64,000 nt of DNA from Favolaschia claudopus (taxonomy: Eukaryota > Basidiomycota > Agaricomycetes > Agaricales > Mycenaceae). The notes beneath the pieces are model-generated. The model ran no database searches. It was not told where the DNA came from and worked only from the letters and a program-made list of their open reading frames with translations. Every line of letters starts with the position of its first letter. The stretch's first letter is position 1. Positions 38,780 through 60,211 of this stretch are shown here, piece by piece. The translations under genes were made by a program, and so were the position numbers. The DNA lies in contig JAWWNJ010000019.1 of assembly GCA_037176885.1 (NCBI GenBank), forward strand, positions 868,001 through 932,000, written 5' to 3'.

Positions 38780-39199
38780 ATGTCTGCCATCCATGCCACA
38801 AGGGCGAAAAAATGGGGAACCAATCCATTTGTTGCAGGTAAAAGTGACAAATCTGGCTACTAGTAGCTCCCTCTACATGCGACCTCTGTAGAATGGTTCG
38901 CGGCGGCGGCCGCATACTGTCAAACCAATCCGGAAGGGAAAAGGGCGTTCAATGCCTGGTAAGAATTCAAATCGAATCCATCCGCGTTGTCTGGTGGCGA
39001 GAGCTGGCTTTAGGTTGGTAACGGAATATGGCAGCGAGACCGCCAAGCAAAAACTGTTAGATTGCCAGAAACCACCAGCTATCAAGAAATCGGGAGCCAC
39101 CGGTACACTTGGACTGTTCAATTCCGCTGCTGTGAGCTTGAGACTCATCGCTGAAGAACTTTCTGATGAGAACTTGGAATTTATTTTCAGTCAGATTTG
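38780..39199 (+). pseudogene. Copy A of the HicA-like-domain gene, 5' fragment cut by transposon
   Basis: N-terminal part of a gene whose intact relative is copy B (50,577-53,390). Starts MSAIHATRAKKWGTNPFVA at 38780. An intron at 38,838-38,891 follows, absent from copy B, then EWFAAAAAYC, AFNAW, another intron and the segment corresponding to RETAKQKLLDCQKPP. The reading is lost where the 6.5-kb transposon begins at 39,200. The rest of this copy resumes at 45,706. The insertion lies just after a TTTTCAG acceptor-like sequence, so probably in or next to the start of an exon. The product is unlikely to be made whole unless the transposon is excised. Confidence 0.75.
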
Positions 39200-39200
39200 T

Positions 39201-39262
39201 ATGGAAACCCGGAGCACCACGCTGATGGTGATGTGATCGCATCATATATTGTGTGATCTCCG
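39201..39262 (+). repeat. Left terminal inverted repeat (62 bp)
   Basis: Pairs with 45,644-45,705 in inverted orientation; only two differences (C/T at two positions in the ATCATATATTGTG part). Inner 20 bases are themselves partly palindromic (GATCGCATCA...TGTGTGATC), a possible transposase-binding site. Confidence 0.92.
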
Positions 39263-39980
39263 GCCTCGGACACCGAATACCGCTCAGCCACTACCTTTTA
39301 TGGCAAGTAGTTGACTTGCTCAAGTATTTGATGTAGCAAGAAAGTATTCAGTAAGAATTAAAATGGTAGCTGGAGATTGTATCTAAACAATGGCAAGTTT
39401 CCAAGAGCAGAATTACGGCCCCCCATTAGTTCAAAAATAACGAAATTTATTCACCGTGACCGGTGTGACTTCCGTGTGACACTGTTCGACCTCAACGCAG
39501 AGCAGAGTAGAGATAGATGGCACGCAGCTTTATCGCATTAAATGAGACGATAAAAGGACTACATTGGCCTGTGAGACTCAGTCAGCTTTATTTTAGCAGC
39601 CCCGGCTTGTAATTACCTTGTAATTGCCGACAATCCGGGAAATGGCTTCCTTCGGAAAACCTACGTGTTATAAATTCAGCTGGACTTCAGGGAAGCCAGG
39701 ATTGCGCCAGAATAATGGGCACAGTGTGATGAAAAGATATATGTGTCACTACTCGAAATCTATCACGGAATTCTCTCAAAATTTCGATAATGATCATCCA
39801 CTGGCATTTTAATCTAAATGAAACTATTTCCGACAAGACAAGTTGAGTTGGGTGGATTCATGCGGTTAGGGAACCAGCGTGCATAGGAATCATAGGTGCA
39901 TAGTAGTCATATTCAACATACAGCATATCATATTGCTCATAAGTACTTGATTTCAGCCACACGGACAGAGTGAGTTTAAT
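39263..39980. other. Left non-coding arm of the transposon
   Basis: 718 bases between the left TIR and the kinase stop codon. No convincing gene. Presumably holds the kinase 3' end and transposition-end sequences. Confidence 0.4.
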
Positions 39981-42651
39981 TTACAGCTCGGGGAGTTTGA
40001 ACCATGCGCAGTACTGGTTGCAAACATGTTGGTCGGGGAATTGCTCAAACACGGAACCGACATTTCCATCTGCAAACAGATCCGCACCCTCCGCAATTTT
40101 CCTGGTCAAGATGTAAGCAAAAAGGAATGTCAAAGCAAGAAATCGGACTGACGGTGAGGTCATGATTTGTGGGTCAGTAAGTAAAATGTCAGATCCTAGG
40201 ATATGAATTGAGTAAGTCGGAAGCAATCGAAAATGAAAATACTCACCCTGGAGATCGGAGAGAAAGACCATCTCTCCACTCTTCCAATACTGAATATGCT
40301 GGGTGAAGCACAGGAAGTCCGCAATCCACCGCCAGGCGTCGTCTGCATCAAGAAGGGGAACAGCACTTCCATTGTGCACAAATTTGACGAATTCACTGTC
40401 AGAGTTAGTCTCGATATACTCCTCAAGAAGATATGTTTTTCGGATCGATGCTTTGCTGGAATTCTTCGCAGGAGTTTCATAGTATATTGCGACCCCAGCT
40501 TGAACGAAGCGTAGGTCTGGAATCGGAGGGCAATCCTGATGATCGAGGGTGTCGAATGAATAGATGTATGAATATGAGAAGCCCATGATGGAAATCGCCC
40601 AGTATAGATTGTTCGCCTCCTTCAAGATAATTTTGTGCTCCTCCGGAGAAGAGTAGCGAGTGTAAACCGTTTGACCTCCAGATTTGTTCGAAAGCTCGCG
40701 GAATGTACGTTTGACGACAACCAACTCGTTTTTGGTAGTCCCCAAGCCCGCGTCGCGCAAATGGTGCAAGGTGATCCAACCACGGTGAGCGGTTTTGAAT
40801 GTTCCGCATCCAATTGATAGGTTTGACTGAATGGCAAGGAATCCTTGAGATGCTTCATCTGGTGTACAAGTGAAGCGGGAAAGATGTTGAAGCTCTGGGT
40901 CCAAGAGCTCATGCAATGAAGGCGGCTCGATTGCATAGAATTCCACCTGCTCCGAACCCAGAGGAGCTTTGAAGATCAATGTAAGCGCACAGATAGACAA
41001 ATGAATTTAAAATTCAACGTACTGGCACCCGCAGTAACATCTGGTTGACCACCAACAGCTAGCACCTTTGCTAGGCGCGACCGATCGGGTGAAACATATG
41101 CTGGAGGGCCTCTCTTTCTAGATTGAGGAGGTGTTCGAGGCCGAGACTACAAATTTGCGTTAGAGATTATTGTAAAGTTGGGAAAGTAACGATTCGGTAC
41201 CTCTTCATCTTCGGAACTGTTGCTCTCTCTATCAGTAACATCAGGGTTATTTCCATTCTTTGATTGGTTAGCATGAGTGTGGCAAAGATTCAGTACCCGT
41301 ACCTCCCAGTCAGCCGCTCCTAGCGCTTGAGAGCGTAAAGAGTCCGGAACCGAAGCTTGAATGGAAAAGGACGACGATGATCGAGTCGTACGGGCGATTA
41401 CAGAATTCTGTGACTATATTGTTGATTGAAAATGATCAGAGCTTCATGTATCTTGCCTTCGGAGTGTCCTTTTCAAATTATCGGTGAGAAAGAATTCAGC
41501 AGAAATATAACAATCAAACAAACCTCATCCCAGTCGATGTAAGCTTCCCATTGTGGAGCTGGGATCACCAACGCGATGGCAATGGACACTTTAGGTCGTT
41601 TGTAGACCATCGTCTTGTCCTTCTGCTTGTAATTCGGCTTTCCCATATAGCGATTGTAAAACCAAGGTGAGTTTTGATCCTCTTGACCCAGGTCAATCCA
41701 GCGAACAACCTCTCGGAGAGGCATTTGCGCCAGGGGAAATGGATAGCCGTTAGTTACCTCAGCCAGCCGCGGACCCATGACCTGGATAATTAGTCCTCTC
41801 AGACCCGCCGGAGTGATTTTTGCTGGGACTTCTTTCCCCTCGCTGAGATTCTAAGATAGAAAATTAGCGGTTGAACTGACAAATATTTATACTCTTTTGC
41901 GCACCAAGACCAAGGTACCCTTTAACTTGCCAGGAACCTCGTGTAGAATCTGTAAAATCAGACCGATGCTCTCCGCAGGATCGTGGTGATATGCCCTCGA
42001 CGCCCATGCCTGTCGCTCTGCACCATAGGAAGCGTGTGCAGCCGAATATCCGTTGGGTTGAAAATATGTTGTACTGGAGGTAGATTGATGCCCAGGAGCA
42101 CCCCACGAGCTGGGTACATTGACGTGTGGTAGCATCGAGGCTTTAAGGAGAGAATGTAGTCAAATCTATTGAGTCGAACCTCAAAACGAACCGAAACTCA
42201 CCCGGTGGCGGTGGAGGCGGCATCGAATAATTTGGTGAAACAGCAGTAACCTGCCGCTGAAGCGGAGTCGCATCTGCAAAATTCGGGTGAAGCAGAAACC
42301 AATTTAAACACTGATATATCTACCTTTACGTTTTGCATCCAATGCCTGGCGACGTACTACCGCAGCTTGCTCAGAAATATCACCGCGCACTGAATATTCA
42401 AATCTCAGACCAAATGCATGCAAAATAGATAGGATTCCTCACCAAGAGTGTCGGGTTTGCCCAGAATCCAGTTGTAACAAGCGCTACATACAACTCGGTC
42501 CGGTAAATTTGGATTCTGATTTCTAACCAAGTGCCGATTTTGATCTCCAGGTGCAAGGACAACACCACATGAGGAGCGCTCGCACACAACAGGACGATTA
42601 GCCCTGACATCGTCCGTGAATTGAGCGTAGACTTCGAGTGGTCTAGACATG
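39981..42651 (-). CDS. Alpha-type (MHCK/EF2K-like) protein kinase, transposon-borne
   Basis: Starts MSRPLEVYAQFTDDVRAN at 42651 and ends WFKLPEL with TAA at 39,983-39,981. N-terminal module has paired cysteines, VCERSSCGVVL and VVCSACYNWILGK, a possible zinc site. A low-complexity Pro/Gln linker (SMPPPPPG) follows, then a conserved middle region (MGPRLAEVTNGYPFPLAQMP, LREVVRWIDLGQEDQNSPWF) and a basic Ser-rich linker. The C-terminal kinase domain (41,000-39,981) shows alpha-kinase marks: SIGCGTFKTAHRG (nucleotide loop), ELVVVKRTF (Lys), YLLEEYIE, EFVKFVHNG, FTQHIQYWKSGEMVFLSDLQ with G, an intron, then LLTDPQIMT, FADGNVG and CNQYC. These fit the atypical alpha-kinase fold rather than classical kinases. 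Seven or so introns. Role in the element unknown: it may phosphorylate the transposase or a host factor, or be selfish cargo. Confidence 0.82.
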
Positions 42652-43029
42652 AAGAAGAAAGCAAGGTGAAAGAATGTGAGACACAATGAGAGAGATAAGC
42701 TAGCAAGCAATTTATACAGCACCGAGGCAGTACAGAAAATAGCGGATGAGTTTGAGGCAGTGAGCAAGAACCGAAGCTAACTACGATTACCGGCAAAGCC
42801 AAGGTTCAACCGTGGGTATATTTGCTGTGCTGTTGATCGCTGAAACGAAATCTTTGCCTCTATCCGCAGCAACATAATTGAAAGCTGTTCAAAGCTGTTC
42901 TCGAGTCTGTGCAAGGCTATTCTTGAATCTGTGCAAACCCATCGCATTTTCATGTGGGTGAGCGAGTATAAAGACAGACATTTTCTTGACGATCCAACAT
43001 TCCAACTCAACACTTCATCTCAAAGAGCA
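42652..43029. promoter_or_regulatory. Shared divergent promoter of kinase and transposase genes
   Basis: 378 bp between the two start codons. TATAAAG at 42,967-42,973 is 57 bases before the transposase ATG. TATAAA on minus at 42,716-42,711 is 60 bases before the kinase ATG. Between them lie two AAAGCTGTTC units (42,881-42,900) and a 22-bp degenerate direct repeat (42,891-42,912 and 42,913-42,934, ending TCTGTGC). Symmetry suggests joint control of the two genes. Confidence 0.65.
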
Positions 43030-44967
43030 ATGTCCTTGAAAAATCAATATCTACCGAATCGTGCGTTGTACACGATATATCAAGTTCACAATGTCGATTC
43101 TGAACTTTGTTCAAAGCTCCCTTAGATCTGATCCGAGCCCCACTTCTCAAGTACTGGAAGATGGGCAAAAATGACAAAGAGATTCTTCGTCTTTTGCTCC
43201 TGCACGACATTGATACAACACAATATGGTCTAGGGTAATGATCTACAGTCTTCGCTGTCTTGACTCTGTCCTGGCTGAAATTCTTCGTCACAGGATCACA
43301 CGGTTTCGAGAAGTTAGAGAGTCTCTCGGCCTCTACCGCTCTCGGAAACAAAACCATGACACCACCTCTATACGAGCAGCAATGATTCGACTCCGGGAAC
43401 AGTATCCCAAAGCAGGGGCGCGAGAAATAGTCAGTCTTTTGTTCCATGAGGAGAATATGAGCGTAGCACGGCAAGTTATTTCTTCCACTGCGAAGAATTT
43501 CGGCTATTGATTCGGCCCTGAACAGGAGCACCGTTACGGAGTACTTCCAAATTTATGAGCCGGAATTAGTGAAGGAACGCCGCAAGAATCGACTTCGACG
43601 AAAGAGATTCTGGGCCGCAGGAGCCAACGACGTGTGGGCCATTGATCAACACGATAAATGGAAGTATAAGTTTGGACTTGCTCTCCATACCGGCATTGAC
43701 CCGTTCCTCGGTCGAATTGAATGGGTGAACATCTGGTGGACTAATAGCAATCCACGGCTCATTTTGAGCTATTATCTTGATGTCGTTGAAGCTCTTGGAG
43801 GTAAGCAAAGTCGCTCTTAATCAAAACAATTTCTCTGTTATCATTGATTTTGATTCACTGCATTCCAGTGATGCCTCTAATCTCACAAAGCGACCCGGGA
43901 CCGGAAAACAATGGCGTGGCAAATGGCCATACTCTTCTTCGCCACTTGCAAGATCCGACACTCGAAGGCACCTTGCAGCACCGCTGGATGCGAGAGAAGA
44001 AGAATGTGCCACCAGAAATTTCCTGGCGGCAGCTTCGCCATCGGTTCACTCCCGGTTTTGAAAATATCCTCGATCACGGTGTAAACAATGGGTGGTATGA
44101 CCCGAATATTTTACTTGAAGCGTATGCTCTCAGTTTCCTTGACCGATTCTTTTTTTCATTTTTTTGAAAGGCTGGTATTCCGTTGGGTATTTATTCCCTG
44201 GTTACAGAAAGAGCTCGACGCCTATCGCGAGAGGGTGAACAACACAAAGAAGCGCGCTGACAGGAACAAAGTTTTACCTATTGGTGTCCCGAACGACATG
44301 TTTGAACACCCAGAGGATTATGGTGTCTTGGACTTCAAGGTTCGTTCATTCTCTTCCAGTTCTGGAATTCAGATGCCTTACTCACAAAAATCAAGATCAA
44401 AGTCCGGAAAGAGAACATCGATCGTGTCCGTGAGATATGGGCACCTCGAGATCATGAAGTCTTTCAACTGGTTCCTCCATCCTTCGCTGTAATCATTGCA
44501 AGGATGTACGAAGAAATCAACAGTCCAGAAATAACGCGCCAGAATTGCTGGGATGTTTACCTCGCTCTTCTCGCTAAGTTCCATGCGCTTGACGCGGCTC
44601 ACGAGATACCAGAAAATCTTGATGAATGCTGGGGTCGTGCCCTCACATTGGCGCGTGAGGACTGTGCGAGTGATATTGAGCTCATGCCCAACTTGCAACC
44701 TCTTGCAAACGATGACGATGTAATTGGAGACGAGGGCGGTTTTTATATGGGCGGAGTGAATAACGGCAAGGGTCTTGGTATGGTCTGTTTCATATCACTT
44801 GCAATGGAGCGGCTGACATCTCATTAGATGCACAACAATTGGCTCGGCTCGATGAGATGCTGAACAATGATGAGCCTCAAGTCGTAGACAATGATAGAGA
44901 TGAAGGAGTTTTTGCATGGTTCTCCGATGATGAACAGGAGCAGGATGCCACCGCAGATGACTGGTAG
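43030..44967 (+). CDS. rve-type integrase/transposase of an Agaricomycete DNA transposon
   Basis: Starts MSLKNQYLPN at 43030; stop TAG at 44,965-44,967 after EQDATADDW. After the first intron the product reads LLKYWKMGKNDKEILRLLL, then an N-terminal helical (HTH-like) region with MIRLREQYPKAGAREIVSLL. The retroviral-type catalytic core follows: DVWAIDQHDKWKYKFGL (first Asp codon at 43,644), IDPFLGRIEWVNIWWTN, LISQSDPGPENNGVANG (second Asp at 43,892), TLQHRWMREKKN (Glu 34 residues after the second Asp). Then RHRFTPGFENILDHGVNNGW, VFRWVFIPWLQKELDAYRER, NKVLPIGVPNDMFEHPEDYG and an acidic tail. The D, D, E triad is therefore present. Six or so introns with good splice sites; no frameshift seen. 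This family is usually labelled integrase core domain protein in mushroom genomes; it is not the KDZ family. Confidence 0.88.
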
Positions 44968-45643
44968 TTTACTTCAATTTACTTGTAATCTCTGTTCAAC
45001 TTTTCTCTGCAATTCACAATGTCCAGTCCTCCATTCATCATACTATGTGCTATAGTAATTTATAATTTATTAAAGTTTTGTTTCAAACTGACAGAATAGA
45101 AATCGTACTCGAGGGTCTGTTCGAAGAATTTTGTGTACAGATAGTCAAACACTTCCATTTCTCGGCCAAACCTCGCTGTTTTTGGCTGAGAACACCAAGA
45201 AACGTTTATTTAGATTCAAGCTCTGTGTGTATATATTTAAAAAAATCAGACTGCCGCCAATGCAGAGAAACACGAAGAAGAAGAGGAAATTGATACGGTC
45301 ATGTGACCGTGTTTTACTTCACCATTTCCCATCAAAGCCCATTGCTTCGCGTCCCGATGGGTTTTAAGAGTGTCCGAGGTAACAAATATTGTTTATTACT
45401 ACAGTAGGAACATACCTGTACCAATAAGTGGGGCCATAGGATCCTCATGGCAAATCGGCGGTGGATTTGTCTGCAAGGTGACCTCGTACAGCCACTCGGC
45501 TACCTACTGTATCTGCAAGTCCGATGACAGATTAAAAGTCAAAATCAATTTGCCGCAAAAATAAGCATACCAAATGCCAGTCAACAAAGTTGCGCCAAAG
45601 GGGGTGTTCCGGGTCCATATAAGCCATAGTGAAATGCCACAGA
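44968..45643. other. Right non-coding arm of the transposon
   Basis: 676 AT-rich bases between the transposase stop and the right TIR, with no gene seen. Length is close to that of the left arm. Confidence 0.4.
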
Positions 45644-45705
45644 CGGAGATCACACAATGTGTGATGCGATCACATCACCATCAGCGTGGTGCTCCGGGTT
45701 TCCAT
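45644..45705 (-). repeat. Right terminal inverted repeat (62 bp)
   Basis: Inverted partner of 39,201-39,262, followed directly by the second copy of AGATTTG (45,706-45,712). Confidence 0.92.
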
Positions 45706-48700
45706 AGATTTGGGTCTACATGATTTGCTTCTCCATGCCGCCTTAGCTCATAATTTGTGACAGGCATTTCTGACGAAGCAATGCAAGAATACCACAAATT
45801 CACTGCTGCATCCAATCTGTGCTCTCCCCCTCGGACCAAACCTGCCCCAAAGCGACGTCGAGGTGAGACATCTGCCCAGTGGCTCGCGGTATGTCTGTTG
45901 CTGGCGAATTTCTGTGGGACAATACTCATCGATTTTTCATCTATATACCAGCGTCGGCACGATGCTCTTTTGAATGGTTGTAAGGTTCCGGATATCGACT
46001 GGAGACTCGCACGCGCTACGGCCATCTCTGAGTTTGTCCGTTTTCGTTATCATTTCTTCGTATTCGATCTTCCTTTTTTGTGACGTTTTTGTACATTAGG
46101 ATAAGGCCAGAGACACATACGAGATTTGGCACTCAGACTTGAATGTGGTTCTCGATGTTGTGCTCCCTCGCGCTCCATCGGTTCTTATAAGTTCCGAAAC
46201 TAAGCTCGGAACTTCCGAAGCAGCTATCTCTCGCCTGAACTACGCTTTTAGTGCCAAGCTACACACAATAACGGTACGTGGAGGCCGCGTCTGTTTGGCG
46301 AAAAAATTCTGATATCAGTATATATAGTTTTCACACATGGCCTGGGGCCACGCAGTGGGACTATTCGAGGAACTCGATCGTCGGGGATTGTCTAGTACTT
46401 CAGCAATCGAACGAGCCTATCGGCAGGATTCAACTCTCATGTGGCAGTTGGTGGTATGCCTCTGTAACACATCCTATCTATCAAACGATCTGTGGGCCCA
46501 ATTCATCGAGGTGATGAGTTGGTGCGAATATTATCGCCCGTACTTCACACGCGTTCGAGTTAGTGCATTAAATACTCTGACTGAGAAGCTTTCTGATGAA
46601 CCGTCCACGATAGACTCGAGGGAGAGCGCAAATCGAAATCGATCGCCAATATCTGAGGCAGAGTGGCGGTTACAAGACCGACCTTGATAATGTCATCATT
46701 GAAAATATTCAAACCAGTGCGACAAGGATTCCCTCCTTCTATGACGACGTGCACAAGTACATTGTGCGTACCGAAACGTTGAATTCATGAATTTAATTTT
46801 GCTCAATTTTCACAAGGAAAAAAGTCCTAACGAGGCGGAAAAATTTAGTCACGAGGCGTACGAAGCTCTGGGAGACGTCGCCAATGGTAACTTCCCTGTA
46901 CAACTTTTCTCCGTGTTGGCTGACAAGTTTAAGTATCCGAATTCCAGCTCCAGTTAATTCATTCTGCCTTCGGACAACGTCTTATCGAATTCGCTCAATC
47001 CAAAGATAAACAACAGTGCCTTGATGATCCAAAATTTCTGGCGATTGCTACTTTTATGGACCCCTCAAAGCTTCGATGGGTTGAAAGAAACAGCAACGAC
47101 TGGTCTTATGTCCGCACCATCGGCCGTTCGTTAGGGGCCACTTGGGGACACGCTACCAATCAAATGGGTATCGGGGAATTTCTGGTTCGATGTTCCCCCG
47201 GGCCTCAAGCCGAGGATGAGCGGGAATCCTTGAATCTTGCGTTCGATCATGTGTGGCTAGGAATCGATACAGCTCTCTGGGATTATGCACATACCCTCGA
47301 TAGAAGCAGCTCGAAGGGTACGGTCGCTCGCAATTTTGGAATGTTTGATCCCGCAGATCCACAACGACCAAGCTACATGAAAATGTTCGTGAAGAAAGTT
47401 GGAGCCTGCCTTTCCGAAGATCTACGACGAGATCTTACCACAAAAACCCCTCCGGCTTCGAAGGACGTATTTGTGCCTGAAACACACCAAACTGCGGCTA
47501 CTTCTGGACATGCCTATATCTCGAACACTCAGCATCTCCGGGCCAAAAACAAAGTCAAAACGAAAGGTAATACAGATTTACAAGTGGTAGGTGGTCCCGC
47601 ACAGGAGGGAGAAGAAGAAGAAGAGGACGAGGACGAGGATCTTCCTGTCCTTCTCCCGTCAGATTTCAAAATGGGGAAAAAACTATTGAAGGTCTGCGCA
47701 GTTCGCATCGTGTTGCCTTATCGAAGGCGACTGACTTTCCTATTGTTCTAGGTTTTCCACCGCATCATTCAAGCCTCCGATATGCCTGGTGCGGAAGATA
47801 CCCAAGGGCCGAAACCGGGACAGATCCGATGGGGGGAATTTGAGCGGGTAAGCTTTCATATTCTGCACCATTTGTTCCAACTCCAATTTTTTTTACGTTG
47901 ATAGGCCATGAAACGAATCGGTTTTGGAGTGGTACAAACAGCGGGATCTTCTGTACGATTCGACCCGCCGGCCAAATCAGCTCGGCCGATCACATTCCAT
48001 CGGGTGGGCAGATCGTCTCCTTGCTCACCGTGGTCGCGTATTAATATTGAAGGTTTATGGCAGCCCGGGCCTCAAGCCGAGGATGAGCGGGAATCCTTGA
48101 ATCTTGCGTTCGATCATGTGTGGCTAGGAATCGATACAGCTCTCTGGGATTATGCACATACCCTCGATAGAAGCAGCTCGAAGGGTACGGTCGCTCGCAA
48201 TTTTGGAATGTTTGATCCCGCAGATCCACAACGACCAAGCTACATGAAAATGTTCGTGAAGAAAGTTGGAGCCTGCCTTTCCGAAGATCTACGACGAGAT
48301 CTTACCACAAAAACCCCTCCGGCTTCGAAGGACGTATTTGTGCCTGAAACACACCAAACTGCGGCTACTTCTGGACATGCCTATATCTCGAACACTCAGC
48401 ATCTCCGGGCCAAAAACAAAGTCAAAACGAAAGGTAATACAGATTTACAAGTGGTAGGTGGTCCCGCACAGGAGGGAGAAGAAGAAGAAGAGGACGAGGA
48501 CGAGGATCTTCCTGTCCTTCTCCCGTCAGATTTCAAAATGGGGAAAAAACTATTGAAGGTCTGCGCAGTTCGCATCGTGTTGCCTTATCGAAGGCGACTG
48601 ACTTTCCTATTGTTCTAGGTTTTCCACCGCATCATTCAAGCCTCCGATATGCCTGGTGCGGAAGATACCCAAGGGCCGAAACCGGGACAGATCCGATGGG

Positions 48701-49097
48701 GGGAATTTGAGCGGGTAAGCTTTCATATTCTGCACCATTTGTTCCAACTCCAATTTTTTTTACGTTGATAGGCCATGAAACGAATCGGTTTTGGAGTGGT
48801 ACAAACAGCGGGATCTTCTGTACGATTCGACCCGCCGGCCAAATCAGCTCGGCCGATCACATTCCATCGGGTGGGCAGATCGTCTCCTTGCTCACCGTGG
48901 TCGCGTATTAATATTGAAGGTTTATGGCAGCCCCATCCTGATTCAACAATGACACCTATCATGCTGCGTTGGTAAGTCTGCAATTGTGTTGCTCGTAATG
49001 GATTTGATATGTTCATTGCAGGGTTGGTGCTCGGTTGAAGAGATGCTATGGGTGGACGACTGCTACCTTCTCTCGAGCTGCTGTGGAAGAAGATTAA
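45706..49097 (+). pseudogene. Copy A of the HicA-like-domain gene, 3' part, with internal tandem duplication
   Basis: Continues copy A after the transposon. Exons match copy B in order: GISDEAMQEYHKFTA, KPAPKRRRGETSAQW, KVPDIDWRLARATAI, WGHAVGLFEELDRRGLSST, VMSWCEYYRPYF, then STSKGTVA-type (SSSKGTVARNFGMFDPADP) and SGHAYISNTQHLRAKNKVKT. Then come an acidic Glu/Asp run, VFHRIIQASDMPGAEDTQ and finally the HicA-like end (RIGFGVVQTAGSSVRFDPP, then HPDST), stopping at 49,097. An 867-bp block (47,197-48,063) is repeated perfectly at 48,064-48,930. It covers the C-terminal third up to the last intron of the HicA-like region, so the copy has one truncated and one complete HicA-like segment. Probably a disabled copy; I describe the break without joining it. 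Confidence 0.72.
47197..48930 (+). repeat. Perfect tandem duplication, unit 867 bp
   Basis: Copies at 47,197-48,063 and 48,064-48,930 look identical throughout, with CCC at both junctions and after the second copy (microhomology). One breakpoint lies inside an exon, the other exactly at a 3' splice site (TATGGCAG), so after splicing the reading phase would be kept. Confidence 0.92.
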
Positions 49098-50576: not shown

Positions 50577-53390
50577 ATGTCCTCCTCCTTGCATGTCGCT
50601 CGCGCAAAAGCTTGGGGAACCAATACTTTCGTAGCGGAATGGTTCTGTAACGCGGTGGACTATTGCCGAACAAAGGAAGGGCAAAAGGCGTTCAAGGCTT
50701 GGTGAGCTTTTGGGTTCCCTTTCATTGTACTTTCTTTGGAACAAAATGTAGGTTGGTTGACGAATACGGGAGAGAGACAGCCAAGCAAAAGCTCTTGGAT
50801 TGTCAAAAGCCTCCTCTGAAACGATATGGACGGGCGACTGGGAACGTTTCTCTTTTTAATGCCGCTGCTGTACGACTTTTCCAAATTCTTCTTGGAACCA
50901 CTGTAGTAATCTGGTTGCCATTTTCCAGGTTGAATTCGGTAGGCTCGTTAGCTCATAGATGGAGCCTTCGCTCACGTTCCTGCAGGTATCTCTGATGAAG
51001 CAATGCAAGAGTATCACAAATTCACTGCTAACTCCAATCTCTGCGCCCCTCCTCGAACCAAACCTGCGCCAAAACGACGTCGAGGAGAAACATCTACAGA
51101 GTGGCTGGCAGTATGTGACTCGTTGCATACCATTGAGTATCGTGTTGATAGTCCGCACTAGCGTCGTCATGATGCACTGTTACTTGGATGTAAGGTGCCA
51201 GATATTGACTGGAGGGTTGCGCGGGCTATGGCTATCGCTGAATTTGTTCGTCAATTTTCAATCTCGGTCCATTGTATTCATGTGTTGATTCGCTCTCACA
51301 GGACAAGGCGCGAGACACGTACGAGATTTGGCACACGGACTACGAGGTTCTTCTCGATGTGGTTCAGGAGCGCACGCCTTCATCGCTCCTCAGCCCCAAT
51401 GTCGAACTTGGAACTCTCCATGAGCGATTAGATCGAGTAAACCATGCATTCACGTCGTGTCTGCACGCCGTCACGGTATGTGAGCTGTCAATTCTCTATG
51501 TTCATAATCCTAAGGAGTCGATGTAGCTTTCATACATGATCTGGGGTCACGCACTCGACGTATTCGAGGAATTGGATCGCCGGGGACTTGCTTCCACGTC
51601 AGCAATTGAGAGGGCCTATCAACGAGACCCTGCACTCATGTGGCGGCTCGTGTTATGTCTGTGTCATATTGACTACTTGCGTGGGCATCTCTGGGAACGC
51701 CTCACCGAAGTGATGAGTTGGAGTGAATATTATCGACCCTACTTCAAGCGTTACAGAGTGCGCGTATCAACACAAATTTGTCCTGCTCATCCTCATCAAC
51801 ATCTGGTGACAGAGTCCGAATGCAGGATCGCGAATTGAGGTAGATCGTACATACCTCAGGCAGAACGGGGGCTTCAAGACTGTTTTGGACAATGTGATAA
51901 TCGAGGGTATGGACACCGACGCCTCGCACAATCCCGGTTTTTTTGACAACGTGCTCAAATATCTGGTATGTAACTGGTGAATTATAAATGCACTTACTGA
52001 GTCGGCAACAGGATCAAAATCCCACTGAGGCCAATAAATTTAGTAACGAAGCATTCCAAACTTTGGGAGACGTTGCTACAGGTTTTTCTCTTTGAATCCT
52101 TTCCCCCCAAGTGCTTCCTAATACACTTGCAGTGTGGGAATTCAAGGCTCAACTATTTGATTCGGCGTTTGGGCAACGCCTCATGGAATTTGCTAAAACC
52201 AAAGATGAGCTGCTCGAAGATCCGAAAAACTTGCGGATTGTAACCTTCATGGAGCCTTCCAAGCTCGAATCGCTGCCGCGGAACAGCAATGACTGGACCC
52301 GTGCGCGCACAATTATTCGCTCACTAGGCTTCACTTGGCTGCAGGTAACGAACCAAATGGGAATGGGGGAATTTTTCTTTCGCTCGGGGTCATCGCTTTC
52401 AGGTCCTGAGCGCCAGACGTTGGCCATGATGTTCGATTTCCTATGGGCTCATATCGACGGCAAGCTTTGGCAATGCGCAATGATGCTAGATAGAAGCACT
52501 TCGAAGGGCACCGTCGCTCAGAAATTCGGAGTGTTCGATCCTGCCGATCCCGAACGACCTAGCTTCATGAAAATGGCCGAGAAACGGGTTGGTGCATATT
52601 TGGCCCAGCGCCAGCGACGAGCGTTGCCCGCGAATCCTTCCAAACCAAAGGAGAGCTTTTCATTGCCAGCAGTGGAGCCGGCGGTGGCTGCTTCTGGCCA
52701 TGCTTATGTCTCTGATACTCAGCATCTCCGTGCAAAAGAGAAGGTTAAAACAAGAGGAACTGCGGCGCCCGAACAACCTGCCGATTTGGATGAAGAGGAG
52801 GCCGACGAGATCCTTCCCGACGCCCTTCCAACCGATTTCAAAATTGGCAACAACAAGGTCCTGAAGGTGAAAATAAATAGTCGTGCTTTGGTTTCTGCAT
52901 GAACTAACTAAACTTCTCAGGTCTTTCACCGGATTCTTCAGGCGCCGGATATTCCTCATGCCGAAGACGATTCTGGACCGAGGACGGGACAAGTTCGCTG
53001 GGGGGATTTCGAAAAGGTTAGTTTTCGTCTCGTTCACCTCTCAAACTTACTCACAACCGTTGAAGGCCATGAAACGAATTGGATTCGGAATCGCACAAAC
53101 CGCTGGTTCATCTGTCAGATTCGACCCACCTGCTAAGTTAGCGCATCCGATTACCTTCCATCGGGTGCGTTGTTCCCTTCGGGTGACTACATCGTAATCT
53201 CATCGCTTGTTCCAGCCTCATCCTGATTCGACGTTGACCCCGACTATGTTGAAATGGTAAAGGTTTCTTCCTGTCATGTTCACTTTGAGCATTCACCTAA
53301 TGATGTCTCAGGATTGGTGCTCGACTGAAACGATGCTATGGTTGGACTACAGCGACATTCGGTCGGGCGCCCGTAGAGAACGAAGACTGA
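50577..53390 (+). CDS. Copy B: uncharacterised Agaricomycete protein with C-terminal HicA-like domain
   Basis: Apparently intact spliced gene, start MSSSLHVARAKAWGTNTFVA, stop TGA at 53,390. Domains by eye: N-terminal unknown region (FCNAVDYCRTKEGQKAFKAW; RETAKQKLLDCQKPP), a basic patch KPAPKRRRGETST, then a long helical region (VPDIDWRVARAMAIAEF, WGHALDVFEELDRRGLAST, VMSWSEYYRPYF). Next are NDWTRARTIIRSLGFTWLQV and STSKGTVAQKFGVFDPADPE, a Lys/Glu linker, VFHRILQAPDIPHAED. The C-terminal about 70 residues (53,067-53,390) are MKRIGFGIAQTAGSS, VRFDPPAKLAHPITFHR, PHPDSTLTPTMLKW and IGARLKRCYGW. Their order (Lys/Arg-x-x-GF, then G-S-x, a strand, HP, L-T-x-x-M-L-K) resembles HicA mRNA interferases of bacterial toxin-antitoxin systems, but the catalytic G-S-H is G-S-S here. 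Function unknown. About ten introns; no frameshift. Confidence 0.7.
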
Positions 53391-56134: not shown

Positions 56135-56551
56135 TGAAGATCGCAAGTTCGATAGCGGGATGGTGCTTTGAGATGTTCAATTTGCGCCCTAAGCTCCGAG
56201 CTTTATACCGTTGCCCTCGCGCTCCAATTGGCTCTCCATTGAGAGCACACAAAGCGCCGAGGCTTGCTTATTCGACACTGTTTTGCGTTTGTAAGGTTGA
56301 AGTTGGTGACTTTTGTCGGTGTTCCGAAACATAAGTTTTAGTTCAGGCAATCTTGTAGACCTGAAGGGACGCAGAAGGGTATAGAGCACAAGAGTACTTG
56401 CGTAGAAGGCCAACAGGTGAAGGCGGCTGTTAAACCACAATGGTAAGAAGAGTGGTCAGGGTGTTGGCGAAAGGGACGCCGCTAACCGGAAATAGCCGGG
56501 GCGGCCTTTCGTCACCTTCCTTTTTGGGCTTTTGTCGGTTTGCTTCAAAAA

Positions 56552-58206
56552 ATGTCGCTCCTCAACCTGCCATCCGAAATACTGACTCTCGTGCTCCTCC
56601 CCTTGGACTTGCGCTCCCTGATCTCATGCTCTGAAACTAGCAGACACGTCAAGGCTGTCATTGATGGCTCACCATTGCTTCAGTATCGTCTCGCCTCTCA
56701 GATTGCCTGCGTCGAGTATATACCCCCAGAGAATACGCATGTCACATCATCGGACCGAATCTCTGCTCTTGCGAAGCTTCAGAATGGTTTCGAGGAACTA
56801 CGCCCAAGCTCGACGCACACCGTTCAGATGGACAACTGCCCTATTATGCACTCCTATGGCTTAGCTGGTGGCATCTTCGCTATGACTGAGCCTGCAAGGA
56901 AAGCTTTCAGAACCCTCTCATTGGCTTCGATCGATATACAACCCCCGGCCTGGGAGCGCCTGGAACTCAGTGAATACATCTACGACTTCGGACTTGACCC
57001 GGAGCAGGACCTTTTGGTCATCATATCGTCGTACGTCGTCTTATTTCAGCACGAGGATGCACCGAATTGAATCTCAAATCAAAGTGTTTTGCACCCGGAC
57101 AATCCCCCGCCTCCTGATACGGGTTTCAATCTCAGGTTCTACCGACTGTCCACGCTGTCACCTCATGAGGAAGCCCCTGCACTTATCATGCTGCCTTCGA
57201 CATCCATTGTCGACTGGATTGATTTTGAGGTGGACTGTTGTGAGGATAAGGTGGCTGTAACGGTATTCTTCCTTCACGGTTCGGTGGATCATCTTCTTGT
57301 GTATGACTGGAAAACGGGTGAACTGTGTCTGGTAATGAGGCATTTGAATGATCTTGGAAGAATGACTCAATCATTGTCCATTAGGACCTTACCGACGACG
57401 ACAGCTACTCAGCTTGTACGTTTCTCTCGAGGGATGTTCTTCTCCTAGGCAAACGAAGCGGAACTCTTGATTTATGGGCTTTTGGGCGTTCACCTGACTA
57501 TGTCTGTGAACGGGAAGTCTCATTGTTGCTTCCGCCCCTCCCACCCGGCTTGCTATATTTCCCTATGCGATTGGAATACAGTCCCAAAGGCCAGTGCTAC
57601 AAGGGCCAACAGTCGCGCAAATTCCGAGCATCGTACGCCGAATCTGTCGTTGCCCTTCGAATAACTTGCGAAATGGAAGAAGATAGATCTCTCTCTAAGG
57701 ACTGGATCGTGATTCTCTCCCGAAAGACCCTTTTGCAGCATCTCCAGTCGCCAGAGAATCGCGGAGTACACCTATTATGGGAGCAATGGGGACCGTCTAC
57801 CAGTCGATGGCTGCCTTGCGATTCCGATGCTTCCGGCCGCATATGGCCGACAGTGATTTGTGGCCAGCGACTAATAATCCTCAGGCACGGAGGCTTCATA
57901 CAGCTCCTCGACTTCAATCAGTACAGGTGGAGGAAGAGCTTGGCGAATGGAAATGCAACCGACAGACAGGACGAAGATGCAGATGAAGATCAAGATGGGC
58001 TCGGAGATGTACGACTGGGGTATATATCCAAAATATCCCAACAATCTGTGGATTGGAAGGGGGTGATGCTAGATGACGAATGGATTGTGGGGATTAATGT
58101 ATGTTTCGTTCTGTTTCTCTCCAGACGACTTTAAATTCAAAATGTATCACAGGACACGACTGATACTGATGGCAAGTTCTCGCTCGAAATATGGCGGTTC
58201 GGTTGA
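56552..58206 (+). CDS. F-box protein D, first of a tandem pair
   Basis: Starts MSLLNLPSEILTLVLLPLDL at 56552 (56540 is only an in-frame TTG), with the F-box continuing RSLISCSETSRHVKAVIDGS and LLQYRLASQIACVEYIPPEN. After an intron near 57,030-57,080 the protein continues NPDNPPPPDTGFNLRFYRLS, VDWIDFEVDCCEDKVAVTVF and LLVYDWKTGEL. Later exons give LVRFSRGMFFS-type and YSPKGQCYKGQQSRKF, WIVILSRKTLLQHL, WGPSTSRWLPCDSDASGRIW and DWKGVMLDDEWIVGI. The last exon ends KFSLEIWRFG. The V-Y-D-W-K-T-G segments suggest a beta-propeller-like C-terminus that would bind substrates for an SCF ubiquitin ligase. Frame appears intact when introns are allowed. Confidence 0.75.
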
Positions 58207-58453
58207 GTGTGTGTTGATGCAATTTACTGGATATATTTTTTTAATTCTTGTACGGGCGGCTGAATTTGCATGAAACGCTGGAAAGGCGGCGATTTTTCTA
58301 TAGAATTGTTGGGCTGTATGTTGTCTCACTGAGGGTCAGGTCGCTGGAGTTTGGTTACGGGCTGGCCGTACTCCGCGTGGGAAACCTAGTGTCTTATTAT
58401 TATTATTCCTTTTCTCTTTTCTGGCTTTTGAAGTTTTGCGTCTTTCATCGAAA
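58207..58453. other. Spacer between tandem F-box genes
   Basis: 248 bases holding the end of gene D and the promoter of gene E. TTATTATTATTATTCC microsatellite at about 58,394-58,410. Confidence 0.4.
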
Positions 58454-60211
58454 ATGTCGTTTCTCGACTTTCCATCCGAAATTTTGACTCTTATCCTCCT
58501 ACCCTTGGACTTGCGGTCCCTTATTTCGTGTATTTCGATTAGTCGACGCATCAAGGCGGTCATCGACGGCTCAGCGCTCCTTCAGTATCGTTTGGCGTCT
58601 CAAGTTGCCTGTGTGGACTATATCCCTCCAGAAAACACCCATACTGCCTCTGCAGACCGGACTTCTGCCCTCAACAGCCTCCAAGATGGACTCGCGCAAT
58701 TGCTTCCAAGTTCGACGCACACCATTCAGATGGACGTTCCCCCGTCCAGGCGCTCCTCAGTGATCATTCTTGCTGGCGGCATTCTAGCTTTGACGGAGCC
58801 TACGAGAACAGCTTTGCGAAGCATCAATCTGGCTTCCCTTGAAACGCATCCTCCGACCTGGGAGCGTTTGGAACTAACTGAATACATCTATGAGCTCGCA
58901 TCGCTGCCTGAGGAAGACCTTCTGATACTTGTGACATCGTGCGTATTCTCACTGTGGCTTGTATATTCATTGACAAAACAGAAACAGGACTTTGAACCCA
59001 GACAACTTCGTTGTTATCCCAGGTTCCGATCTCGTGTACAACCTCCGTTTCTATCAACTTTCCACGCTATCGCCTCATGACGGCGCCCCAAAACATACCA
59101 TAAATCTTCCCATAATCTACGGCGGCTCTTATTACTTCGATGTGGACTGTTGTGAAACGAAAGTGAGCGTCGCGGCCGCAAAGAGGTACTCGGATGATCC
59201 GCACAATCATCTCTGGGTATACGACTGGAAAACCGGCCGGCTACACATGGTAATTATCCAGACGTCCCTTCCCATCATTCCTGGTTTATTACTCAACTCC
59301 CACTGTAGGACATCTTTGGCGACACTGCTTACTCTGCTTACATGCTCCCTGCCCATATCTTGCTACTGCCACAAAGCACTCAGGGAGCGCTCGAGCTATG
59401 GGCCATTCAGGATTCGCCCAACTATCAGTCTGGTCCAGAGCTTTTTCTGCTTCTTCCCACGCTGGAACGAGCGCCAGGCTTCCAATATCTGTTTGACAAA
59501 GTGGAATATACCCCCAAAGGTCACTGCCCAACGAATCGAGGTTCTCAAAGATTCCATTCCTCGTACGACGAATCTGTGCTCGCTTTCGACCTGACCTGTG
59601 GGGATGTAGAGGGCGGAACAATGTGTCTTAAATGGCTCGTCGTTATATCTCGGAAAGCATTGCTGCAGCTGCTTTCTTTGTCAGAGAACCCCGGAGCGAA
59701 GCTGACATGGGACCAGTGGATTCCGTTTACAAGTCGGTGGCTGCTTACGGATGGTGTCAACTACACCTGGCCGACAAATATTTGCGGCCAACGAATAGTC
59801 TTCGTCACGCATGAAGGCTCAATTCTGCTATTGGACTTCAATCAGCACAGGTGTGGAAAGAACCTCAGAATTCAAGCAGGAGATGAAGAGGAACCCATCG
59901 ATGATGAAGGTGAGGACCTAGCTCTCCCGCTCCGAACATTGCTTGAATCCATGCGTTAGACCTTCGGCGGGACCCGTGCATCAAAGACGAGCCCGAAATG
60001 TTCGGCGAGTCTGCACATCGGCGACTAGAGTATGTGGTGAAGACCTTCCTGGCGCCGACGGATTGGCGGGGGGTGATGCTGGACGAGGACTGGATTGTGG
60101 GTTTTAAGGTGTGTCTGTTATGTCTTTCCGTATCCGTTTTCGCTAACACACGTAAAGGACACAAGAAATGCCGATGGCAGATTTACATTTGAAGTATGGC
60201 GGTTCGGTTAA
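58454..60211 (+). CDS. F-box protein E, second of a tandem pair
   Basis: Paralogue of gene D with the same exon plan. Starts MSFLDFPSEILTLILLPLDL, RSLISCISISRRIKAVIDGS, ALLQYRLASQVACVDYIPPE. Then WERLELTEYIYELASLPEED, after an intron NPDNFVVIPGSDLVYNLRFY and VDCCETKVSVAAAK, LWVYDWKTGRLHM. After the next intron HILLLPQSTQGALELWAIQD, YTPKGHCPTNRGSQRFHSSY, WLVVISRKALLQLLSLSENP, WIPFTSRWLLTDGVNYTWPT and an acidic loop. It ends DWRGVMLDEDWIVGFK, one intron, FTFEVWRFG. Compared with D it has an extra acidic loop before LRRDPCIKDEPEMFGE. D and E arose by tandem duplication; both appear functional. Confidence 0.75.

Follow-up and report, generated by a model that had tools for sequence, protein, structure and literature searches.

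The closest described systems are DNA transposons of the IS3EU superfamily, which one paper (PMC12730594) defines by TAYGG..CCRTA ends, terminal inverted repeats (TIRs) longer than 30 bp (stated for the rust families) and 6-bp duplications, and to which another (PMC10045372), under IS3EU/GingerRoot, ascribes TA..TA ends, mostly 6-bp duplications and a DDE transposase. Kojima (2025, PMC12730594) reports that every IS3EU family bearing a TET gene has this gene between transposase and alpha-kinase genes of opposite orientation; these families come from rust fungi and Tuber indicum. The alpha-kinase itself receives two mentions, without analysis, in the main text of that paper, and the word kinase is absent from the main text of PMC10045372; a third source describes the alpha-kinase family as highly expanded in rusts (PMC4469406). 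Given the statement in PMC12730594, the pairing of kinase and transposase was already on record, as a brief mention, for rusts and a truffle, and the view of a sequence-only reading of our locus, that no element of such make-up had been described, gives way to it. Apart from that paper, our searches of the open PMC literature yielded no report of such a transposon with an alpha-kinase, and in the papers found there the pairing, mentioned for TET-bearing IS3EU elements, is left without analysis.

We analysed a 64,000-nt stretch of Favolaschia claudopus DNA (hereafter the window; C19:868001-932000 in an assembly of 264.6 Mb and 460 contigs) that contains an element of 6,507 bp (39200-45706) with one transposase and one alpha-kinase gene. 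The element fits the IS3EU superfamily because of its TATGG..CCATA ends, 6-bp duplication, TIRs longer than 30 bp and integrase-type transposase, a placement made by ends, duplication and fold rather than by tree. With the TET-bearing elements of rusts and T. indicum it has in common the 6-bp duplication, the ends, the TIR length above 30 bp and a kinase opposite the transposase, and with IS3EU/GingerRoot in general the TA..TA ends, the usual 6-bp duplication and the DDE transposase. The TET-bearing elements, however, hold a TET/JBP gene between these two genes, whereas the window element has none there (the 379 bp between the two starts being too short for one), and it resides in a mushroom (Mycenaceae). 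An extra enzyme likely helping against the host also occurs in other TET-bearing fungal DNA transposons, KDZ elements among them (PMC12730594), but theirs is a dioxygenase, beside transposases of other superfamilies, where the window element has a kinase. We are highly confident that this is an IS3EU element whose kinase is a maintained transposon gene, a confidence that leaves the kinase's target aside. New here are the retention of the kinase-transposase pair across F. claudopus copies, selection on both genes and their co-descent in Mycena; it is unusual for purifying selection to maintain a protein kinase within a transposon.

The borders of the element are formed by two 63-bp TIRs, a left one (39200-39262, plus strand) beginning TATGGAAACC and a right one (45644-45706, minus strand), which agree at all but two positions (61 of 63), with the target-site duplication GATTTG on either side (39194-39199 and 45707-45712). 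The earlier reading had been right about the repeats and their two differences, but it gave them as 62 bp, placed the right border one nucleotide short (45705 instead of 45706) and took the 6-bp duplication for one of about 7 bp. With up to 3 mismatches allowed, the terminal 31-mer occurs at 2 places in the 64-kb window, which are the two TIRs (0.00 expected from 100 shuffles). The genes inside stand head to head (transposase on the plus strand, kinase on the minus strand), with a 379-bp spacer between their start codons (42651-43029) that is presumably a shared divergent promoter region. Both gene models (an 8-exon transposase and an 11-exon alpha-kinase) are predictions with splice sites read from the sequence, and their frames are open, in agreement with the proposal of two long spliced genes. 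The element is complete and probably autonomous.

The IS3EU-type DDE transposase gene (43030-44967, plus strand; 511 aa; modelled from splice sites) has exons at 43030-43060, 43126-43234, 43294-43470, 43526-43800, 43869-44121, 44171-44339, 44396-44777 and 44828-44967; the intron at 43471-43525 has a GC donor (GCAAGT..CAG) and is thus of the GC-AG type. Its product matches Pfam rva_4 (PF24764) at 41.3 bits (cut-off 26), and across 29 aligned relatives the columns of the candidate triad D146, D206 and E247 are nearly invariant, invariant and invariant, respectively, so that the rve-fold transposase with a D, D, E triad proposed earlier is upheld. In Foldseek, a predicted structure of a transposase relative (P0016, mean pLDDT 75.3) matched TnsB (E 6.6e-4), the only match below E 0.001, and more weakly IstA and retroviral integrases.

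The alpha-kinase gene (42650-39981, minus strand; 696 aa; modelled from splice sites) has exons 1-4 at 42443-42650, 42324-42389, 42202-42273 and 41893-42140, exons 5-8 at 41524-41850, 41303-41407, 41201-41257 and 41023-41146, and exons 9-11 at 40247-40966, 40153-40195 and 39981-40101. Exon 1 (42443-42650, minus strand) encodes a C-x4-C ... C-x2-C pattern (C23, C28, C55, C58) that is possibly a zinc finger and might bind zinc. The protein scores 56.2 bits against Pfam Alpha_kinase (PF02816, cut-off 21.3), and the motifs GCGTFK (455), K488, SDLQG (639), LTDPQI (648) and HVCNQYC (682) could be located in the 696-aa model, which substantiates the earlier identification of an alpha-kinase by its nucleotide loop, Lys, TDPQI and CNQYC. 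Across 13 aligned sequences, K488, D640, Q642 and H626 are invariant and D650, H682, C684 and C688 nearly so; we take these residues to be catalytic and zinc-ligand positions with roles as in MHCK A and TRPM7, which together with eEF2K are the nearest well-known alpha-kinases. Where the two align, our model shares 98% of its residues with an annotated kinase of F. claudopus, P0001 (BLASTP 93% over 99%). P0001 lacks one exon of the model with a few adjoining residues and differs at its end; its AlphaFold structure is poor (mean pLDDT 57.9).

Searching the whole genome with a TIR 23-mer (up to 3 mismatches) yielded 120 ends, as against 1 for the reversed pattern. Pairing plus and minus ends at most ~12.3 kb apart among 100 listed of these 120 gave a set of 23 elements including that of the window, two wider pairs (C1, 36.8 kb; C202, 19.5 kb) having been excluded before counting. 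Kinase sequence is present in all 23 of these elements, so that no paired-TIR copy examined lacked it and the claim that the transposon encodes the kinase stands, and transposase sequence is present in 21 of the 23, none being seen in two short elements. The kinase-keeping elements represent two TIR variants, and wherever both genes are held (21/21) their orientation is divergent. By their flanks the 23 elements occupy 19 distinct sites, with four pairs at a common site that are probably haplotypes; across the distinct sites, the duplication is exactly 6 bp in 16, 7 bp in one and missing in two, while mismatched flank pairs, as a control, gave a 6-bp match in 2 of 342. One of the site-sharing pairs is the window element and a second full-length copy on C314, which was rejected as an independent insertion and is probably the other haplotype because its flanks are those of the window; exons projected onto it show frame breaks. 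Among 12 single-ended TIR loci that were fetched, five hold both genes, one the kinase only, one the transposase only and five neither, two of these last being cut off by a contig end after less than 450 bp of the element. Several copies owe their greater length to retrotransposon-like reading frames inside them, recognized by eye (LINE-like, with a 1,838-codon frame, and Gypsy-like, nested in C56:674686-686637, C86:1094088-1106158 and C129:65288-77578). Along an annotated 517-aa F. claudopus protein (P0002), matches to the right TIR, to the transposase end in antisense and to the kinase follow one another as they do in the window; the protein is therefore a read-through of another element copy.

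For both genes, we calculated dN/dS between the window element and three near-complete copies (C214, C129 and C30, in this order below), with gapped codons set aside. Values were 0.08, 0.07 and 0.07 for the transposase and 0.17, 0.12 and 0.14 for the kinase, and no stops occur among the codons compared, which shows that both genes are under purifying selection between copies; the low values of the kinase in turn imply that it was kept functional during the spread of the element.

Beyond F. claudopus, protein searches returned 15 kinase relatives, nearly all from Mycena and Favolaschia (a profile search added two more kinases), and 461 transposase relatives, of which 120 were listed. With contigs equated by equal size, four of 16 kinases apparently share a contig with a listed transposase of the same species, namely in M. 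olivaceomarginata (contig of 90,647), M. polygramma (1,316,473), M. pura (230,403) and M. crocata (100,784); the chance of at least four such matches is 0.0044, 0.0003 or 0.00007 for assumed genomes of 50, 100 or 150 Mb. In M. olivaceomarginata, the kinase model runs into the TIR, its C-terminal QRGAPGFHT being a translated TIR end. Trees of kinase and transposase for the five pairs (window plus four Mycena) have the identical topology (window, (M. olivaceomarginata, M. polygramma), (M. pura, M. crocata)), with bootstraps of 100 in both genes at one node and of 68 and 67 at the other. Distances of the two genes correlate across the five pairs (Mantel r 0.87), a value reached by 1 of 120 permutations, itself the true pairing.

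Because the copies keep the pair, both genes are under purifying selection and the Mycena pairs are concordant, we interpret the kinase as a maintained gene of the transposon and not as a chance capture. As in its family, the transposase would bind the TIRs, excise the element and insert it into target DNA cut with a stagger of 6 bp. The kinase may be expressed jointly with it from the 379-bp spacer and might phosphorylate a protein that restrains how far the element spreads. As that protein, we find a host factor acting in silencing or repair slightly likelier than the transposase itself, both being put at less than an even chance.

A kinase that disarms a host response, be it silencing, translation control or DNA-damage signalling, is for us slightly ahead of the other roles, though at less than an even chance. 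Among the five pairs, kinases have diverged faster (pairwise identity 35-47%) than transposases (58-70%), which indirectly favours such a role, as does the putative anti-silencing gene between transposase and kinase in TET-bearing IS3EU elements (PMC12730594), by which such elements would gather counter-defence genes; the similarity to eEF2 kinase and MHCK A, however, is shared by the entire fold family and points to no substrate. Nearly as likely is that the kinase phosphorylates the transposase and thereby sets its activity, copy-number control or timing. Divergent pairing and co-descent fit cooperating proteins, and phosphorylated transposases are known from other elements, but the faster divergence of the kinase fits a host-facing partner at least equally. 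We regard as improbable that the kinase is a passenger retained apart from transposition, through host benefit or element persistence. In its favour, at one locus (L037) the kinase match spans 689 residues and the transposase match only 51, with a kinase dN/dS of 0.16 against the window, yet most paired elements retain both genes together and the kinase dN/dS of truncated copies is mixed (0.13, 0.16, 0.23, 0.26, 0.26, 0.46, 0.54 and 0.78, some from fewer than 10 changes), so that selection after transposase loss is neither shown nor excluded.

A recent chance capture of a host gene, or a separate element nested inside, is very improbable and was rejected as contradicted by the other copies: capture would be easy in principle in a genome with at least 133 alpha-kinase matches, and against the three near-complete copies the kinase half differs in dS from the transposase half (0.06-0.11 vs 0.20-0.29), but the kinase is kept in 23 of 23 paired elements on two TIR variants, with 21 of 21 divergent, the linked Mycena pairs yield kinase and transposase trees of identical topology, TET-bearing IS3EU elements are stated to share the arrangement (PMC12730594), and the disparity between the halves resembles the outcome of recombination between two subfamilies, each with the kinase. 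The window element thus looks like a recombinant of two such subfamilies, and an old capture that became fixed belongs within our preferred reading of a maintained transposon gene. A bolder extension of that reading, which we consider doubtful, is that basidiomycete IS3EU elements carry the alpha-kinase as an ancient part of their standard gene set, one that pre-dates the TET gain in rusts and is dedicated to switching off host defence; if so, transposon genes would make up much of the alpha-kinase families that lack an explanation in rusts and mushrooms.

We evaluated how far the element accounts for the alpha-kinases of F. claudopus itself, where PF02816 has at least 133 matches (exon-level rather than genes; 150 of 229 candidates scored). 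At least nine of these 133 lie within 15 kb of any of the 100 listed TIR ends (chance ~1.5), and at least nine are no more than 10 kb from one of the 46 related transposase loci that a search with P0019 retrieved (chance 0.46); the union, counted by hand, links at least 12 of 133 to this element type, the window's kinase included. The transposon therefore accounts for part of the kinases, and the earlier suggestion that it explains their expansion holds to that extent and fails as an explanation by itself. None of the 133 matches lies within 20 kb of the 141 listed PF24764 places (the high-scoring ones, which comprise other families), so a general linkage of alpha-kinases with rva_4 integrases was rejected and the kinase link is specific to this transposase type. 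Where kinases are counted in such genomes, checking for TIRs is advisable, since the annotation of F. claudopus contains at least one element read-through as a gene (P0002); it can now be tested what the transposon gains from its kinase, and which share of the alpha-kinase expansion consists of transposon genes as against host signalling. The best eight PF02816 matches (L001-L008, on C59, C27, C175, C20, C9, C46, C9 and C136) form a second, different repeated alpha-kinase family, with blocks of ~0.9-2.8 kb that are 91-100% identical between loci. On C9, two copies of this family are inverted with a 1,967-nt stretch identical between both, and beside L003 lies a weakly transposase-like sequence (26-36% identical).

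Elsewhere in the window, an exact 867-bp tandem duplication (47197-48873; 100% over reported stretches of 300 nt and 104 nt) lies in a reading-frame family (46933-47751, 47905-48618 and, more diverged, a third member at 52096-52902) and is either a recent duplication or an assembly artefact. Further along, tandem frames at 56486-59594 resemble F-box proteins by eye (LPSEILTLxLLPLDLRSLISC).
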